A DNA stretch of 11,519 nt from Candidatus Dormiibacterota bacterium (lineage in GTDB: Bacteria; Chloroflexota; Dormibacteria; Aeolococcales; Bog-877): positions 1 to 11,519 of the forward strand of contig PLDE01000276.1 in NCBI GenBank assembly GCA_003135035.1, in the 5' to 3' direction. A program made the position numbers and the translations under genes. The notes below the pieces were generated by a model. It had not been told where the DNA came from. It ran no database searches and saw only the letters and a list, made by a program, of their open reading frames with translations. Shown here one piece after another: positions 736-11,519 of the stretch (the first letter of the stretch is position 1; every line of letters starts with the position of its first letter).

Positions 736-1035
736 TCAGCGATATTGGGTCGCGTCACGGCCCAGCGCCGCGGCGGCATGGTCGAAGTCGCTCCTCGCCT
801 CGCCAGCCTCGGCAAGGCGATGCCTTGCCTCGGTGGCATCCAACAAGTCTTCGAGGGCAGGAGCTAGTTCTGCCCAGAGCTCCCACGGCACGATCACACC
901 CTGCGGCTTGCGGTGGCTGCCGAAGGCCACCGGCTCAGCCGCAGCGCCACGCCGAGCGAAGTCGGCGACAATCTGGCTGAGCCGTGCTCTAGCTTCGGTT
1001 GTTGGCAGCACCTGCGGCGGCAGCTGGTAGACCAT
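736..1035 (-). CDS. Phd/YefM-family antitoxin
   Basis: This 99-residue protein starts MVYQLPPQ. Residues about 10-60 match the Phd/YefM DNA-binding fold: LPTTEARARLSQIV (the helix of the 'ArxxLxxlv' type), then EPVAFGSHRKPQGVIVP (the strand pair usually seen as 'pv.it.hgkp.avlvs') and a following helix WELWAELAPALEDLLD. The C-terminal third is acidic and helical, as expected for the part that wraps and neutralises the toxin. It precedes the toxin in the usual antitoxin-first order. An upstream in-frame start at 1095 is possible, but it would add 20 residues unlike the family and would read through the candidate promoter and operator. The ATG at 1035 has no clear Shine-Dalgarno; a -10-like hexamer seven bases upstream suggests a leaderless or near-leaderless mRNA. 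The protein probably represses its own operon. Confidence 0.82.
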   Translation of the reverse strand: MVYQLPPQVLPTTEARARLSQIVADFARRGAAAEPVAFGSHRKPQGVIVPWELWAELAPALEDLLDATEARHRLAEAGEARSDFDHAAAALGRDATQYR

Positions 1036-1042
1036 GACTGAA

Positions 1043-1063
1043 ACTGTAGCATGTAGCTGTACG
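1043..1063 (-). promoter_or_regulatory. candidate promoter and autoregulatory operator of the toxin-antitoxin pair
   Basis: On the plus strand three TGTA-headed hexamers follow closely: TGTAGC at 1045-1050, TGTAGC at 1052-1057 and TGTACG at 1058-1063. The known YefM operator core is TGTACA, so the repeats suit binding by a YefM-like antitoxin. On the minus strand TACAGT (1048 to 1043) could be a -10 element seven bases before the antitoxin ATG. Repressor binding at the repeats would then cover the promoter. No good -35 hexamer is visible. The operator role is inferred. Confidence 0.45.
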
Positions 1064-1647
1064 TATTTCCTCTCTGGTCTCGGACCTTGTGGCACCTCTG
1101 AAGCTCGCAGCCGCTCAGGGCCCCACCTGCTCTTCGCGCCCCTGCCGCCCAGCTGAGAAAGCTTCGGTCAACGCTCAAGTGGTGCCGTCGAGACGAGGGC
1201 GCCAGAGCATTCAATGAGCATGGGAGCGTCGCCACCACCTTCGGAGTCAGGTCAGAGCAGAGGCTCACCCACTCCTCTGCGCACACCGCCTCGAGGGCTG
1301 CCAGGGCCGCTCGGTAGGAGCGCCGTGAAGGGGTACCGGGTCCCCAACAGAAGAGGGATGCCGCCTCACTGACTCACGGGCACTCCTCAGGAGTCGCGCC
1401 ATGCAGGGGAGGTGTAACCGCGGCATGGACGAGCTGCCCTGCGAAGGAGCGCTGGAGTTCGGCCATGAATCCACTTTCGCACGACCGTTCCCATCCGAAA
1501 AAGCCGCCAGGCACCGACACCCAAAACGCATGGTCATCTTGCCGGACTCGCCCCGCGGCGGGGAACGCTCAGTTGCCAAGGGCCCCAGAAGGTGCAATCC
1601 TGACGGCGCTACCAAACTCCCACGCGTATCCATCGAGGAGGGACGCC
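1064..1647. other. long intergenic stretch, no supportable gene
   Basis: About 580 bases lie between the divergent antitoxin gene and the membrane-anchored protein. Open frames on both strands (a minus frame over 1265-1660 and a plus frame entering from 1465) have arginine- and serine-rich translations with no recognisable motif. Short inverted repeats occur (for example ACTCC-TCA-GGAGT near 1381-1395 and CCCCGCGGCGGGG near 1552), but none has a T-run. The promoter of the plus-strand gene at 1648 must lie here; I could not place it. Confidence 0.4.
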
Positions 1648-4847: not shown

Positions 4848-4924
4848 TGGTGCCCGCAGCAGGACTCGAACCTGCAACCTTGGGATTAAGAGTCCCCTGC
4901 TCTAACCAGTTGAGCCATGCGGGC
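4848..4924 (-). tRNA. tRNA-Lys(CUU)
   Basis: Read on the minus strand, the 77-base gene folds as a full cloverleaf. The acceptor stem is GCCCGCA paired with TGCGGGC; the D stem is GCTC/GAGC around AACTGGTTA; the anticodon stem GGGA/TCCC encloses the loop CTCTTAA; and the T stem GCAGG/CCTGC encloses TTCGAGT. The seven-base anticodon loop puts CTT at positions 34-36, which decodes AAG as lysine. The 3' CCA is encoded in the DNA. A possible -10 element lies 14 bases upstream. No duplicate of its 3' end was found, so there is no evidence that this tRNA is a used attachment site within the window. Confidence 0.95.
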
Positions 4925-7116: not shown

Positions 7117-7800
7117 GTGCAGGTCCCGCCTCCGCCCCCGCTTCCGCCCAGCCCTCCCAGCTGGCCACCATGGTCCCGTCGCGACCAGTTACGGGCCTCT
7201 GACGAGGACCGGGAGCAGGCGGTCACCGAGCTCACCGAGCATCACGTCGAGGGACGTCTCAGCTCAGATGAACTGAGCGAGCGCTCCCGGCTCGCCTTCG
7301 CAGCGAAGACCAACGGCGACCTCAGCGCCTTGCTCGCGGATCTTCCCGGCCGGCAAAAGAGCCCCTTGACGGTATGGCAGGGTGTGCGCTCGCTTCGCGC
7401 CCGGGGTCCATTCCCCGGCCTCGGCTACCTGGGCTTCTGGCCCCGCGCGGGGGCGCTCTGGGCAGACCTCATCCTGGTCGGAGGCGTTGGCTACGCCGTC
7501 CCGACTCTGAGCCATGACGCATACCTGAGCGCTCCGGTCGCCGTGCTCCAGGCTGGCTACTTCGTGGTCCTCTGGGCGACGACCGGAAGGACGGTCGGCC
7601 TCTGGCTCGTGGGGGGACGAGTGGTACGGGAAGAGGACGGCGGCCGCTTAGGTCTGGGCCGAAGCCTGGTCCGGATGGTTGGCTATCTCGTCGACGTGAC
7701 CACCTGCTTCCTGGGCTTCGCCTGGGCCGGAGTTGACCGGCGCAAGCAGGCGTGGCACGACAAGATGGCCGGGAGTTACGTTGTGCGCCGGCTGCACTGA
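7117..7800 (+). CDS. DUF1707 and RDD domain membrane protein
   Basis: This 227-residue protein has three parts. Residues 1-20 are proline-rich. Residues about 24-77 are a DUF1707 domain (LRASDEDREQAVTELTEHHV, EGRLSSDELSERSRLAFAAK, DLSALLADLPG), a small helical domain common in actinobacterial membrane proteins. Residues about 107-224 are an RDD domain, with the family's conserved residues in RAGALWADLIL (Arg110, Asp117), GRTVGLWLVGGRVV and the terminal DRRKQAWHDKMAGSYVV. Three membrane segments are expected (about 111-130, 138-155, 183-204). RDD proteins have been linked to ion transport in a few cases, but this one's job is unknown. The GTG start at 7117 follows GAGGAC at about ten bases and lies seven bases after the preceding stop. 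Its last 150 coding bases and stop overlap, antisense, the end of the S-component frame. Confidence 0.85.
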   Translation: MQVPPPPPLPPSPPSWPPWSRRDQLRASDEDREQAVTELTEHHVEGRLSSDELSERSRLAFAAKTNGDLSALLADLPGRQKSPLTVWQGVRSLRARGPFPGLGYLGFWPRAGALWADLILVGGVGYAVPTLSHDAYLSAPVAVLQAGYFVVLWATTGRTVGLWLVGGRVVREEDGGRLGLGRSLVRMVGYLVDVTTCFLGFAWAGVDRRKQAWHDKMAGSYVVRRLH

Positions 7801-8577
7801 AGGGCTGCCCGGGACTAGGAGACCCGATTGCGGCCCGGGTTGGGCCAGCCACTCGCTGCCGAACCTCCGTGAGATCCGGTGCAGCGCGGCGAGGACGGGC
7901 AGGCCGAGTACCAAGACCATGACCGCGTTGCCCCCGGCTCGGAAGGCGTCATAGCCCGCCGAGGTGACCAGGTAGTACTTGGCGAAGTGTTCGAGCGCGG
8001 TCAGAGGAGCCAGGTGCGGGCTCCAGCCGATCTGGGGTGAGGAGAAGTAGAAGGTCCAATTCCAGATGTCCATGACCGCGCCAAACCCGAATCCGGTAAC
8101 GACGCCTACGCCGGCCAGCAAGAGCACGTCGCGGCGGCGCGGGCGCTGCTGGGCCAGCACCAGTCCGACCAGACCGGCGAATGCTCCCACCCAGCCCACG
8201 GCAAAGATCTGGTACGGCACCCAGGGCCCGATGCCGCCAGTAACCAAGGCGGAGACCAGCAGCGAGGAGGCGCCCAGGAGAAACCCGAACTCCGGTCCCA
8301 GCGCGTAGCCGCCGCAGAGCACCAAGAGGAAGATCGGGCTGAATCCGCCGATGCCGGTGACCAAGGCGGCTCGGAGCCCGGCGTCGATGGCACTCAGGGC
8401 GGCCAGCAGGGCGAGCTGGCGGGAGTCCATTCTCCTCGTCCCCACCTCGATGGCGAGCAGACCGAGGACGGCTCCAAGCCCAATCGCCAGGGCCGGTGTG
8501 GCGGCGGGCAGCCCCAGCCCGCTGAAGGGCCAGAGAAAGAGGCCAATCCCGAGCACCGAGATGAGCAGGATCTTCAT
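7648..8577 (-). CDS. ECF transporter S-component (substrate-binding membrane subunit), probably corrinoid
   Basis: This is the substrate-specific subunit of an energy-coupling factor importer. The 309-residue frame has a hydrophobic core to about residue 240 with six likely membrane segments. The second half of the core has conserved-looking stretches: SAIDAGLRAALVTGIGGFSP, FLLVLCGGYALGPEFGFLLG, ASSLLVSALVTGGIGPWVPY and VMDIWNWTFYFSS. These fit the S-component group found next to fused ATPases in actinobacteria. The ATG overlaps the ATPase stop by four bases (ATGA), so translation is coupled. The B12 riboswitch upstream suggests cobalamin or a precursor as substrate (a CbrT-like role); this is inference. 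Residues about 243-309 are proline- and glycine-rich and look unlike the core, and residues 260-309 are encoded antisense to the DUF1707-RDD gene. The natural stop may have been lost by mutation or frameshift. Confidence 0.82.
   Translation of the reverse strand: MKILLISVLGIGLFLWPFSGLGLPAATPALAIGLGAVLGLLAIEVGTRRMDSRQLALLAALSAIDAGLRAALVTGIGGFSPIFLLVLCGGYALGPEFGFLLGASSLLVSALVTGGIGPWVPYQIFAVGWVGAFAGLVGLVLAQQRPRRRDVLLLAGVGVVTGFGFGAVMDIWNWTFYFSSPQIGWSPHLAPLTALEHFAKYYLVTSAGYDAFRAGGNAVMVLVLGLPVLAALHRISRRFGSEWLAQPGPQSGLLVPGSPSVQPAHNVTPGHLVVPRLLAPVNSGPGEAQEAGGHVDEIANHPDQASAQT
7803..7850 (+). terminator. imperfect hairpin just after the DUF1707-RDD gene
   Basis: GGCTG-CCCGGG (7803-7813) can pair with CCCGGG (7834-7839) and CAGCC (7846-7850), leaving a six-base bulge on one side. 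GGCCC/GGGCC (7832-7846) is a competing smaller stem. It starts three bases after the plus-strand stop but also lies within the C-terminal tail of the minus-strand S-component frame. There is no T-run. It may be a bidirectional terminator between the converging genes. Confidence 0.3.
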
Positions 8578-9917
8578 GCCGCTGCCTGCCCCCGCGCCAG
8601 GACTCGGCCCTGGTTCAGGTCCAGCACGCGGTCACCAATCTGCTCGGCGAAGTGGGTGTCACTGGTGGCCACCAACACTGCCGTGCCCGAGGCGGCGAGC
8701 CGGTCCAAGACCCGCAGCAGCATGGCTCGGGAACGAGCATCCGCCCCCCTGGTGGGTTCATCGAGAAACACCATCTCGGGCTCGCCAACCAGGACCGCCG
8801 CAAGGGCCGCCCGCTGTCGTTGACCGGTGCTGAGGTCCCGGGGATCGGTCTTGGCCAAGGAGGAGAGCTCGAACTCCCGGAGAATCGGTCCGGGCTGGCA
8901 ACCCAGCCGCAACCAGCGGATCGTCTGGCGGACCTCATCCTCCAGAGTCGCCTGGTGCAACAGTCCACCGGGTTCCTGAGGCAGGTAGGCGCAGCGACCG
9001 GGTCCGCGCTGCACCGAGCCGGAGAGCGGGCGCAGCAGCCCCGCTATGGTCCGGAGCAGGGTTGTCTTGCCGCTGCCGTTGGCGCCGGTGAGGCAGAGCA
9101 CCTCCCCCTGCATCCCGGCCAGGTTGATGCCGGTCGCCACTGGTACGCCGTGACCGATCGCCAAGTCCTGCAACTCCCAGGCGACGTCACCTGAGGACGG
9201 GTGGCGGTGGGCGCCAAGGGGAGCAGGACCTGATCGGGTCGTCCCCGGGGAGATGAGGGAGCCATGGTCGAGTTCCAGCCGCTGAGAGCCTGGGCCATCC
9301 AGCCTCCAGGGGCGGTGCTCGGCGACCACCACCGCCAGCCCTTGGGCGGCCAGGTCCCGGCATGCCAGCCGAAGGGAATCCGCCCCGGCGTCGTCGAGCT
9401 GAGAGGTTGGCTCGTCGAGGACCAAGAGCGTGGGCCGCATCGCCAGGGCGGCGCCCAGAGCCACCCGTTGGCGTTGGCCGCCGGACAGGGTGGCGATCCT
9501 GCGCTCGGCCAGCTCGAGGAGTCCCATCGCCTGCAGGCCACCGTCCACCCGTTCTGCTATTTCCGAAGCGGGCAGACCGAGGTTCTCGGGACCGAAGGCA
9601 ACCTCGCGACGCACGGTAGCCAGGACGAACTGGGATTCCGGCTCCTGGAAGACCATGGACACGTCTCGGGCCAGCCGCCTGGTCGAACTGCTGCGGAGGT
9701 CGTGCCCGAGGATCGTCGCCCTTCCCCACGCCTGACCGCCGTGGAAGTGTGGGACGAGTCCGTTCAGGCTGCGCAGCAAAGTCGTCTTGCCACTCCCCGA
9801 CGCTCCGCCCAACAGGGTCAGCCCACCATGCAGATCGAAGGTGACGTGGCTCAGGGCCGGGTCCGCCTGCTCCGGATAGCGGTAACCGAAGCCATCGAAG
9901 GTCGCCAGGTCGCTCAT
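8574..9917 (-). CDS. fused EcfA-EcfA' ATPase of an ECF transporter
   Basis: This 447-residue protein carries two ABC ATPase domains in one chain and would power uptake through EcfT. Domain 1: Walker A GGASGSGKTT (37-46), Q-loop FQEPESQF (90-97, the ECF-type extended Q segment), signature LSGGQRQR (144-151), Walker B LLVLDEPT (164-171), H-loop in AEHRP. Domain 2: Walker A GANGSGKTT (278-286), Q-loop LPQEP (312-316), signature LSTGQRQR (362-369), Walker B MVFLDEPT (382-389) and His422 in SDTHF. Both sites therefore look catalytically intact, although the second signature is LSTGQ. The start is ATG at 9917, which overlaps the EcfT stop by four bases (ATGA) and begins MSDLATFDGF just before the first ABC strand; a longer frame to 10217 is antisense-like noise over EcfT. 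There is no Shine-Dalgarno, in keeping with coupled translation. The stop overlaps the S-component start by four bases. Confidence 0.93.
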   Translation of the reverse strand: MSDLATFDGFGYRYPEQADPALSHVTFDLHGGLTLLGGASGSGKTTLLRSLNGLVPHFHGGQAWGRATILGHDLRSSSTRRLARDVSMVFQEPESQFVLATVRREVAFGPENLGLPASEIAERVDGGLQAMGLLELAERRIATLSGGQRQRVALGAALAMRPTLLVLDEPTSQLDDAGADSLRLACRDLAAQGLAVVVAEHRPWRLDGPGSQRLELDHGSLISPGTTRSGPAPLGAHRHPSSGDVAWELQDLAIGHGVPVATGINLAGMQGEVLCLTGANGSGKTTLLRTIAGLLRPLSGSVQRGPGRCAYLPQEPGGLLHQATLEDEVRQTIRWLRLGCQPGPILREFELSSLAKTDPRDLSTGQRQRAALAAVLVGEPEMVFLDEPTRGADARSRAMLLRVLDRLAASGTAVLVATSDTHFAEQIGDRVLDLNQGRVLARGQAAA

Positions 9918-10732
9918 GACAGGAGGGCCGGAATGAAGAGAACAAGGCAGCAAGTCGCGGGCCACCAACTGAGGGCGGGAAGCAGGAGCGTGGGGAAAGG
10001 CTGCCAGCTCGGCACCTGTCCCACGAAGAGGGCGACGACGAAGGCGACGATGGCCAGGACCGACGTCCCGGCTATGAGCAGATCGGACCGTCGCCACGTC
10101 GAGGTTGCCAGCGCGGTCCGGGTTCCGGACCCGAAGGCCCTCGCCTCCATGGCCTCGGCCAGGAGCACCGAGCCCTCGATGGTGGTCAGCACCGAGGGGA
10201 CCAGCACGGCTGTCCACGAGCGCAGGCCGCGGGCTCGCCAGCCGCGCATCTGCTGGGCCTCCCGCACCGCCACGAAGCTATGACCCAGGCGCGGAACCAG
10301 GGTCATGGCCGCGCCCAAGGCAGCCCCGGTACGGGAAAGCACCGCCGGTAGGGAGTCCACCAGTTGATGCGGCTCCACCACCAGGGAGAGGGTGATTCCA
10401 GCGACGATACAGGCGGCCAGCCCGAGGGCGAGGTCCAATCCGTACACCCCGCCCTCGATTGTCAGCGGGCCGCCCAGGGCAGGCAGCCAGCCGGGCAGGG
10501 TGAAGACCACGTCCTGGCCGGTGTGACTCAGCAGAAAGTTGAAGAGGACGGTCAGGATACCCGCCACGCTGACCGCCACCAGGGCGGGCCGCAGCCTGAC
10601 GTCGGGCCGGCGCCGCGCTGCCAGCACGGCCACCGCCGCGCCCAGAGTGAGAACCCGGTAGACCGGGTCCTCACTCCCTAGGCTAAGCAAAAGCACTGCC
10701 GCTACCCACGCGGTCAGCGCGCGCGGATTCAT
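9914..10732 (-). CDS. EcfT energy-coupling transmembrane protein
   Basis: This 272-residue membrane protein joins the two ATPase domains to the S-component. It has several hydrophobic segments (about 5-38, 50-68, 96-118, 218-238, 246-270). Two cytoplasmic coupling helices carry the EcfT signatures: EAQQMRGWRARG (158-169) and AEAMEARAFGSG (192-203). The arginines in the ARG and ARA triplets are the residues that dock into the ATPase grooves; the second triplet is ARA where ARG or ARS is more usual. AMTLVPRLGHSF (142-153) precedes the first helix as in other EcfT proteins. ATG at 10732 lies four bases after the lipoprotein stop, and its own stop overlaps the ATPase start in ATGA. The family (CbiQ/EcfT) is secure; the substrate is set by the S-component and not by this subunit. 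Confidence 0.9.
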   Translation of the reverse strand: MNPRALTAWVAAVLLLSLGSEDPVYRVLTLGAAVAVLAARRRPDVRLRPALVAVSVAGILTVLFNFLLSHTGQDVVFTLPGWLPALGGPLTIEGGVYGLDLALGLAACIVAGITLSLVVEPHQLVDSLPAVLSRTGAALGAAMTLVPRLGHSFVAVREAQQMRGWRARGLRSWTAVLVPSVLTTIEGSVLLAEAMEARAFGSGTRTALATSTWRRSDLLIAGTSVLAIVAFVVALFVGQVPSWQPFPTLLLPALSWWPATCCLVLFIPALLS

Positions 10733-10736
10733 CAGG

Positions 10737-11225
10737 TCATGACTTGGGCGGCCGGGGAGGTGCAGCGGCGGTACCGGTGCTGGGGTCGTAGCGCCAGCCG
10801 AGCGCCTGGCCGCTCTTCAAGGTGACGTCGCTGATTCCGGAGGAAGCCGCTTTCCACTTGCCCCCGCCGGTCGAGAGAAAGAGGGCCCAGTAGGGCTGGC
10901 CGGAGGCGAAGCAAGCGGTGTAGGAGGCGGGATCGTGGTCGATCTGGCAGACGGCGTCCCCATAACTAAAGTGCTGGGACGCGAACTCAATCCCGCTGCG
11001 ACGGAGAGCTGTTTCCCCTTTGATCTGGGCGTCCTGGAAGCCGACGCAGCGGTCGACAACGTGATGGTTGCCGAGTTCCACCACCACCTCCACGTGATGC
11101 CCCGACCCCGAGCAGGTGGATCCCGGGGTACTGGGACTGCCGCTGCCTGCGCTGCTGCAAGCCGACATCAACAGTCCCATCGCCATCGCGGCCAGTACTG
11201 CGCTGGCCCCTCGAGACGATCTCAT
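10737..11225 (-). CDS. lipoprotein with transcobalamin-like (DUF4430-type) domain
   Basis: This 162-residue secreted lipoprotein is the first gene of the ECF operon. Residues 1-22 form a signal peptide (basic RSSRG, then VLAAMAMGLLM) ending in the lipobox M-S-A-C with Cys23 as the lipidated residue. A serine, glycine and proline linker follows to about 42. Residues about 45-147 resemble the DUF4430 domain (PF14478), the fold shared with the C-terminal domain of animal transcobalamin: VEVVVELG, the helix ETALRRSGI, then YWALFLSTGGGKWKAASSGI, VTLKSGQALGWRY. The YWAxF...G.W......G pattern is the clearest part. Cys60, Cys93 and Cys105 may form disulfides. The chain ends in a proline-rich tail. 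The start is ATG at 11225, preceded by a perfect AGGAGG at eight bases; a longer frame to 11453 would read through the riboswitch. With the riboswitch upstream, I infer that it binds cobalamin outside the membrane and delivers it to the importer. Confidence 0.78.
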   Translation of the reverse strand: MRSSRGASAVLAAMAMGLLMSACSSAGSGSPSTPGSTCSGSGHHVEVVVELGNHHVVDRCVGFQDAQIKGETALRRSGIEFASQHFSYGDAVCQIDHDPASYTACFASGQPYWALFLSTGGGKWKAASSGISDVTLKSGQALGWRYDPSTGTAAAPPRPPKS

Positions 11226-11232
11226 CGTCTCA

Positions 11233-11269
11233 ACCTCCTGGCGGCGCTTGGTCCCGTCACGCCAGAGGT
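11233..11269 (-). promoter_or_regulatory. Shine-Dalgarno-occluding helix (riboswitch expression platform)
   Basis: In the minus-strand RNA, ACCUCUGGCG (11269 to 11260) pairs with CGCCAGGAGGU (11243 to 11233), giving ten base pairs with one bulged G and a 16-base loop. The right arm contains the whole AGGAGG of the lipoprotein gene. When formed, the helix would block translation initiation. Loop bases GGACC can alternatively pair with GGUCC just upstream of the left arm (11274 to 11270), a possible anti-sequestor. There is no intrinsic terminator between the riboswitch and the ATG, so control is probably translational. Confidence 0.65.
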
Positions 11270-11327
11270 GGACCTGCCGCCGAAGGCCGACCGTCCCGTT
11301 GCGCGCGGGGGTGCGTCGATCCCTCAG

Positions 11328-11490
11328 GGCCGGTCTCCTGGCTCGCGGATCGACGCCTGATGCCGCCTTCCCGGGACAGTCCCAGTGGCTCGCTGGCTCA
11401 GGCTCCCCGCACACAGTTGCGCGACAGCTCCGGCTTTGGGTGACGCCCCGCACCGGATTCCCATTCGCCCGTCGGGCTATTCGGTTGTTA
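11328..11490 (-). promoter_or_regulatory. cobalamin (B12) riboswitch
   Basis: The minus strand carries the conserved blocks of the adenosylcobalamin-type riboswitch in order: GGGAATCCGGTG (11462 to 11451), GGAGCTGTCGCGCAACTGT (11431 to 11413), GCCACTGGGACTGTCCCGG with GGAAGGCGGCAT (11389 to 11360), and the B12 box GCCAGGAGACCGGCC (11342 to 11328). A short GCCC/GGGC stem before the first block is also typical. The 5' boundary is less sure, because the outer P1 strand is hard to place near the window edge. It precedes the lipoprotein gene by about 100 bases and would lower expression of the four-gene operon when cobalamin is plentiful. Confidence 0.95.
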
Positions 11491-11499
11491 GGCGAATGG
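11461..11499. repeat. 9-bp perfect inverted repeat at the riboswitch 5' end
   Basis: CCATTCGCC (11461-11469) and GGCGAATGG (11491-11499) are exact inverted copies 21 bases apart. The inner copy overlaps the start of the conserved riboswitch core. On the minus strand a -10-like TACCAT (11501 to 11496) overlaps the outer copy. The repeat could be a DNA operator or an alternative RNA stem competing with the riboswitch fold. Confidence 0.5.
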
Positions 11500-11519
11500 T
11501 ATGGCCAGAGAGGGCGCCA

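Follow-up and report, generated by a model that had tools for sequence, protein, structure and literature searches.

We analysed an 11,519-nt stretch of DNA (the window) from a soil bacterium, Candidatus Dormiibacterota (Bog-877; contig PLDE01000276.1, GCA_003135035.1), and found on its minus strand a riboswitch-led operon that is very probably a corrinoid importer. A cobalamin (vitamin B12) riboswitch precedes genes for a lipoprotein and for an energy-coupling factor (ECF) transporter. By predicted fold, the lipoprotein is related to the beta domain of transcobalamin, and in relatives of the window a gene for an alpha/alpha toroid, a second transcobalamin-like part, neighbours the beta gene. 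We consider it likely that the operon encodes an ECF corrinoid importer whose beta-domain lipoprotein would do the capturing and whose toroid would have been lost in this lineage.

The riboswitch aptamer (RF00174) occupies 11311..11519 on the minus strand and scored 87.1 bits with Infernal (E 7e-21) against a gathering cut-off of 31.5. A whole-genome search placed it at 11311-11509 (86.7 bits, model positions 1-189), the sole match in this genome at its completeness of 64%. On the same strand follow the lipoprotein (10737..11225, an open reading frame of 162 amino acids), EcfT (9914..10732, 272 amino acids; PF02361, 31.3 bits, cut-off 25), a fused EcfA-A' pair of ATPases (8574..9917, 447 amino acids; two PF00005 (ABC_tran) stretches and TIGR01166 at 245.8 bits, cut-off 211.8) and the S-component (7648..8577, 309 amino acids; PF12822, 32.6 bits, cut-off 30.7). 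A gap of 4 bases separates the lipoprotein and EcfT genes, and the EcfT/EcfA-A' and EcfA-A'/S-component junctions are overlaps of 4 bases each. The ECF transporter parts are complete, with EcfT, two ATPase domains and the S-component all above their Pfam cut-offs. The first-pass annotation of this DNA had proposed this riboswitch, these four packed genes and the identity of the S-component, and had read them as a dedicated ECF importer under B12 control; the Infernal and profile matches bear out each of these points. It had set the extent at 7648..11490, of which the operon end stands, whereas the riboswitch end does not, since the aptamer runs about 20 bases past 11490. Sigma-70 promoter and terminator patterns were not found, in a pattern search that says little for a GC-rich organism.

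By inspection, the lipoprotein starts with a signal peptide, in the form of a hydrophobic stretch followed by a lipobox, MSAC with Cys23 (AGC in most family members). Its residues ~42-150 (10776..11102, minus strand) make up a transcobalamin-beta-like domain according to AlphaFold2, fold matches and BLASTP. The AlphaFold2 model of this domain has a predicted local distance difference test score (pLDDT) of 80-97 per ten-residue block, and the predicted structure has the transcobalamin/intrinsic factor beta-domain fold, matching 3U7Z and the beta domains of transcobalamin, haptocorrin and intrinsic factor at sequence identities of 12-22%. With BLASTP, the lipoprotein aligned at 28% over 117 residues (E 3e-10) to the beta portion of L146, a naturally fused protein described below. 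Against the SCO2322 family (NF040672), it reached only E 0.007, below cut-off. The relation to transcobalamin claimed in the first-pass annotation therefore holds by predicted fold, and not through PF14478 (DUF4430), the family it had named. The lipoprotein alignment comprises 35 of the 41 sequences from the window and 40 relative loci, the window's own included (L047, with a run of N, and the near copies L037, L042, L043, L053 and L062 were left out). Seven residues are invariant in it: Val48, Cys60, Cys93, Pro99, Cys105, Trp113 and Gly143. The window lipoprotein is 42-72% identical to the aligned members of its family (n=12) and 23-41% identical to the remaining homologs; conserved to this degree and with these invariant residues, it gives no impression of a gene in decay. 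According to its entry title, 5NP4 is a lone transcobalamin beta domain crystallised with cyanocobalamin, so a beta-only corrinoid binder is plausible.

Of the 61 genomes searched in this class, 46 have a homolog of the lipoprotein, the window genome (G000) among them. We analysed 40 of the 45 other matching loci, leaving out those of G029, G044, G047, G052 and G056; profiles were built without rows carrying stops or X, and the S-component alignment without L067 (stop codon). The order lipoprotein-EcfT-EcfA-S is kept in full in 34 of the 40 loci, the conserved co-occurrence that the first-pass annotation had suggested looking for, and is broken at or near contig ends in five. Among the 34, the S gene is cut in L055 and lies in two pieces in L059. 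A riboswitch lies upstream in 33/40 loci and beyond contig ends in six; in the window's family it is present in 15/15 loci. Four families of the class were compared: f1, the window's own, its sister families f2 and f3, and f4. A tree of the ECF proteins from 50 of 61 loci (EcfA and one more ECF protein being needed) tracks these families, and therefore the operon looks vertically inherited. The 20 related public records are titled Candidatus Dormiibacterota (nine), bacterium (seven), Chloroflexi (two), Candidatus Amunia (one) and Acidimicrobiaceae (one). The last (L091, palsa_735) holds a 100% identical lipoprotein; the next nearest records are Candidatus Dormiibacterota, and it is probably mislabelled.

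The first-pass annotation missed that the relatives hold two transcobalamin-like parts, an alpha toroid and a beta domain, of which the window's lineage holds one. In the f2 and f3 loci, an extra gene stands between the riboswitch and the beta gene. A profile built from 8 of the positive loci detects a toroid in 18/21 of these loci; L049, L050 and L061 are cut by contig ends. By inspection, the toroid gene product is secreted and C-terminally anchored, and the beta proteins of f2 and f3 have a C-terminal transmembrane-like segment, while those of f1 and f4 carry a lipobox instead. Against the Pfam model for squalene-hopene cyclases, two of six toroid proteins tested scored above cut-off and the others below, and five of six matched the SCO2321 family (NF053823; E 4e-47 to 4e-13), all below cut-off. 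Four beta proteins of relatives matched the SCO2322 family below its cut-off (E 0.4 to 3e-7). Searched genome-wide, the toroid profile revealed no toroid in the window or elsewhere in its genome and matched nothing in the f4 genomes (0/5). Candidates elsewhere in f1 genomes were rejected: 16/18 gave only weak matches (best E per genome 9e-8 to 2e-4), covering ~60-100 model positions in frames of 660-994 amino acids, a size that suggests squalene-hopene cyclases. Tree tests rejected neither f1+f4 (approximately unbiased p, p-AU, 0.81) nor f1+f2 (p-AU 0.74), and one versus two toroid losses were not separated.

Across the phylum, SCO2322 matches at E<=0.001 occur in 35/301 genomes, none above cut-off, and we chose 17 loci from these 35 genomes for spread over many families. 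In all 17, the beta domain has a toroid beside or near it, and 15 have a cobalamin riboswitch upstream, at a distance of 166-330 bases from the toroid domain. EcfT, EcfA and S genes are all present in nine of these loci, and one or two of them in five. Toroid and beta domains are also fused, as toroid-toroid-beta in L136 and L141 and as one toroid with one beta domain in L146, a protein of 535 amino acids whose gene adjoins S and EcfT genes. Other domain orders were seen as well: in L173 and L174 the frame is beta-toroid and another beta protein is encoded close by, and L134 is beta-toroid-toroid. In L132 (G115:C58), toroid and beta genes stand in a stretch where neither riboswitch nor ECF genes were found, and the second beta copy of G115 (C73) has a riboswitch ~3 kb upstream.

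In a Foldseek search with the predicted model of L146 (pLDDT 85.9, predicted template modelling score 0.68), the top 15 matches were all to transcobalamin, haptocorrin or intrinsic factor (E 1.5e-10 to 5e-8), with both domains aligned, and squalene cyclases ranked after these B12 carriers. Superposed on the carriers, the model has a root-mean-square deviation of ~23-24 A and template modelling scores (by target) of 0.41-0.48, a deviation at which the relative domain placement is not reproduced. Among the matches listed, the L146 toroid has a higher Z-score against squalene-hopene cyclase (26.9) than against the B12 carriers (19.8-20.4) and is by this measure closer to the cyclase. A family profile also picks up transcobalamin-1 at the sequence level (E 1.5e-4), with the cyclases ranking far ahead. 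G111 and G184 have true PF14478 proteins beside ECF genes, so DUF4430 proteins, too, are linked to a setting of this kind. Separately, in L180 (G021:C66; same order, without the beta protein), a true PF14478 protein at 7661-8709 (minus strand) adjoins a DUF6580 membrane protein, with a sub-threshold cobalamin riboswitch match (23.8 bits) nearby.

For the substrate, we compared a profile of the S family (18 sequences) with the PDB. The best match was 6FNP (E 4.7e-4), with FolT next at 0.041; 6FNP is CbrT, the B12 S-component of Lactobacillus delbrueckii, as identified in PMC5997447. The window's S-component matches PF12822 only, with no match to CbiM-type S-components at E<=1, and its C-terminal tail beyond about residue 240 is poorly conserved. 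The proposed substrate is a corrinoid, cobalamin or a close analogue.

A probable expression platform lies between aptamer and lipoprotein gene: an 11-pair hairpin at 11234..11286 on the minus strand (arms 11276-11286 and 11234-11245). The Shine-Dalgarno sequence AGGAGG (11234-11239) falls inside its 3' arm, 8 bases 5' of the ATG, and would be masked by the pairing. The hairpin is conserved in the f1 and f4 leaders (n=18, 17 distinct), with 94.6% of cells paired; sliding the partner by 1-3 columns left 35-63% paired, in a control that favours the hairpin, its structure having been taken from one of the aligned leaders. None of 500 shuffles reached the number of cells with both-side changes (9), the percentage paired or the covariation score. 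Translational control through this hairpin would be the natural reading.

Since the window genome is incomplete, gene absences were judged on the genomes of its family instead. The B12-dependent ribonucleotide reductase NrdJ matched in 15/18 family genomes, 14 of them above cut-off and G000 among them. The corrin-ring enzyme CobJ/CbiH exceeded the cut-off in 0/18 (7 weak matches; other ring-synthesis genes were not searched for), as did the BtuC/FecCD permease (0/18, 2 weak matches; BtuM and BacA-type importers were not searched for), and FecCD had no match among the 8 window proteins scanned. In 14 control genomes, NrdJ, CobJ/CbiH and BtuC/FecCD exceeded their cut-offs in 7, 7 and 13. In one family genome, G004, lipoprotein, riboswitch and NrdJ are all missing together. 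A sister genome, G001 (L184, G001:C155), has a second cobalamin riboswitch upstream of what appear, by inspection, to be the large and small subunit genes of a class I ribonucleotide reductase, the arrangement one would expect were the choice of reductase set by the supply of B12.

In the mechanism we propose, scarcity of B12 would let the riboswitch free the Shine-Dalgarno sequence so that the operon is translated. The secreted, lipid-anchored beta domain would catch the corrinoid outside the membrane and pass it to the S-component, or concentrate it there, and the EcfT/EcfA-A' motor would then turn over the loaded S-component. Ancestrally, the ligand would also have been gripped from the opposite side by another surface protein, the alpha/alpha toroid, as in the animal B12 carriers; the window's lineage would have lost the toroid, leaving a stand-alone beta domain. 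A broader reading, to which we give somewhat less than an even chance, is that toroid plus beta, split or fused, is a bacterial counterpart of intrinsic factor and transcobalamin, ancestral in the B12-riboswitch ECF importer of this phylum, that the window's lineage keeps a beta-only capture protein, and that a two-domain ancestor was common to these proteins and the animal carriers.

A number of observations weigh against the proposal. The toroid is absent in 15/15 f1 and 4/4 f4 loci, where the animal-type two-domain clamp is not seen. PF14478 gave no match to the window lipoprotein at E<=1 and none to 35/35 aligned homologs, the window's included, at E<=10, so we rejected membership in this family; the first-pass annotation had itself named such an outcome as refuting. 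Beta-domain sequence profiles found no transcobalamin in the PDB, and the beta profile reached DUF4430 proteins weakly (E 0.003, probability 10.5%). On its own, the window S-component matched CbrT at E 0.024, beside chance matches at 0.034. L066 (G059) encodes a beta lipoprotein but has no ECF genes or riboswitch nearby (the only cobalamin riboswitch match of G059 sits on another contig), and three of the 17 phylum loci, L131 (which ends just past beta), L132 and L139, lack a convincing ECF gene in the stretch analysed. Among family genomes, G005 and G008 have the lipoprotein gene and no NrdJ match, and G016 (85% complete) has NrdJ and no match to lipoprotein or riboswitch. For the hairpin, the number of pairs changed on both sides (3) was equalled in 136/500 shuffles and the count of further pair types in all 500/500. 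In the minimum-energy fold of the window leader, which scores only slightly above shuffled sequence (z -1.5), a nearer arm takes up the Shine-Dalgarno, and the hairpin is missing from some single-sequence folds of relatives.

The main rival is an ordinary ECF B12 importer in which the S-component binds alone and the lipoprotein, dispensable for capture, is an accessory for assembly, anchoring or protection, or a vestige of an alpha-beta carrier since lost. ECF importers are described as binding substrate through the membrane S-component. ECF-CbrT is reported to work without an extracytoplasmic protein (PMC5997447), and the window's lipoprotein has no toroid partner; but the lipoprotein gene opens the operon and recurs across the class, its product keeps invariant Cys, Trp and Gly, and we regard this explanation as unlikely. 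Instead of complete cobamides, the ligand could also be a precursor or the lower ligand of a corrinoid (cobinamide, dimethylbenzimidazole), or some other tetrapyrrole. PMC5997447 has ECF-CbrT carrying cobinamide too, but a transcobalamin-type partner would point to a whole corrinoid, and we hold this to be improbable.

We give a similarly small chance to the beta-domain likeness being a shared small fold without shared function. The absence of PF14478 and transcobalamin matches by sequence would fit it, as would the link between the transcobalamin beta-domain superfamily and another, CATH 3.10.20.30, drawn in PMC13385337, by which the fold alone need not mean B12. It is very improbable that the operon encodes a CbiMNQO-type cobalt importer controlled by a B12 riboswitch. 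B12 riboswitches often govern cobalt transporters as well, and EcfT and EcfA have scores in the CbiQ/CbiO families, which may hold for ECF modules generally; but a transcobalamin-like partner is encoded, and with CobJ/CbiH above cut-off in no family genome, we found nothing in ring synthesis that would use cobalt. We rejected cobalt import on this and on the S-component's lack of a CbiM match.

Elsewhere in the window, an RDD/DUF1707 membrane protein gene at 7117-7800 (plus strand) overlaps the 3' end of the S-component gene by 153 bases; in other family members, for example L032 and L035, the two matches likewise overlap tail to tail. Two adjacent small genes at 364-732 and 736-1095 (both minus strand) look by eye like a RelE-type toxin and Phd/YefM-type antitoxin pair, and a lysine transfer RNA gene (CTT) lies at 4848-4924 (minus strand).

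Among known systems, ECF-CbrT (6FNP) resembles the window in having EcfT, two ATPases and an S-component, and of the solved structures CbrT comes closest to the S family in sequence. According to PMC5997447, ECF-CbrT shares its ECF module among S-components and transports without an extracytoplasmic protein; unlike it, the window system is one operon with a fused EcfA-A' and a co-encoded lipoprotein. Transcobalamin, haptocorrin and intrinsic factor have the beta-domain fold predicted for the window lipoprotein, and relatives add the toroid, in L146 within one chain. Unlike these animal carriers, the proteins described here are bacterial, membrane-anchored and tied to an ECF importer, not to endocytosis, and the window has no toroid and only the low identity given above. 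DUF4430 proteins such as RUMGNA_00854 (3U7Z) lack the cysteines invariant among the aligned lipoproteins, as judged from two aligned DUF4430 domains. The SCO2321 and SCO2322 NCBIfam families, which the relatives' toroid and beta proteins match below cut-offs, are named by locus tag only. BtuG and BtuH of Bacteroides serve outer-membrane B12 uptake; as in our proposal, a surface protein catches B12 for a transporter, a likeness in role. BtuH, a different surface B12 protein, has been linked to an ECF-like cobamide transporter in PMC8941943. A literature search of titles and the starts of abstracts, with partial coverage and few subscription papers, found no DUF4430, SCO2322 or transcobalamin-like protein tied to a B12 ECF importer, which we do not take to mean that none has been published.

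With an outside protein genetically tied to an ECF importer, two-step capture becomes testable. If the proposal is right, the window lipoprotein would do the capture step that ECF systems are thought not to need. The likeness, extended in relatives to the toroid half, suggests kinship between the proteins that catch B12 in animals and in bacteria, and the origin of intrinsic factor and transcobalamin, along with two-domain clamping of B12, could be studied in simple bacterial proteins. The results also suggest a function for the families SCO2321 and SCO2322, and a B12 supply route for uncultured Dormibacterota that are seemingly unable to make B12.

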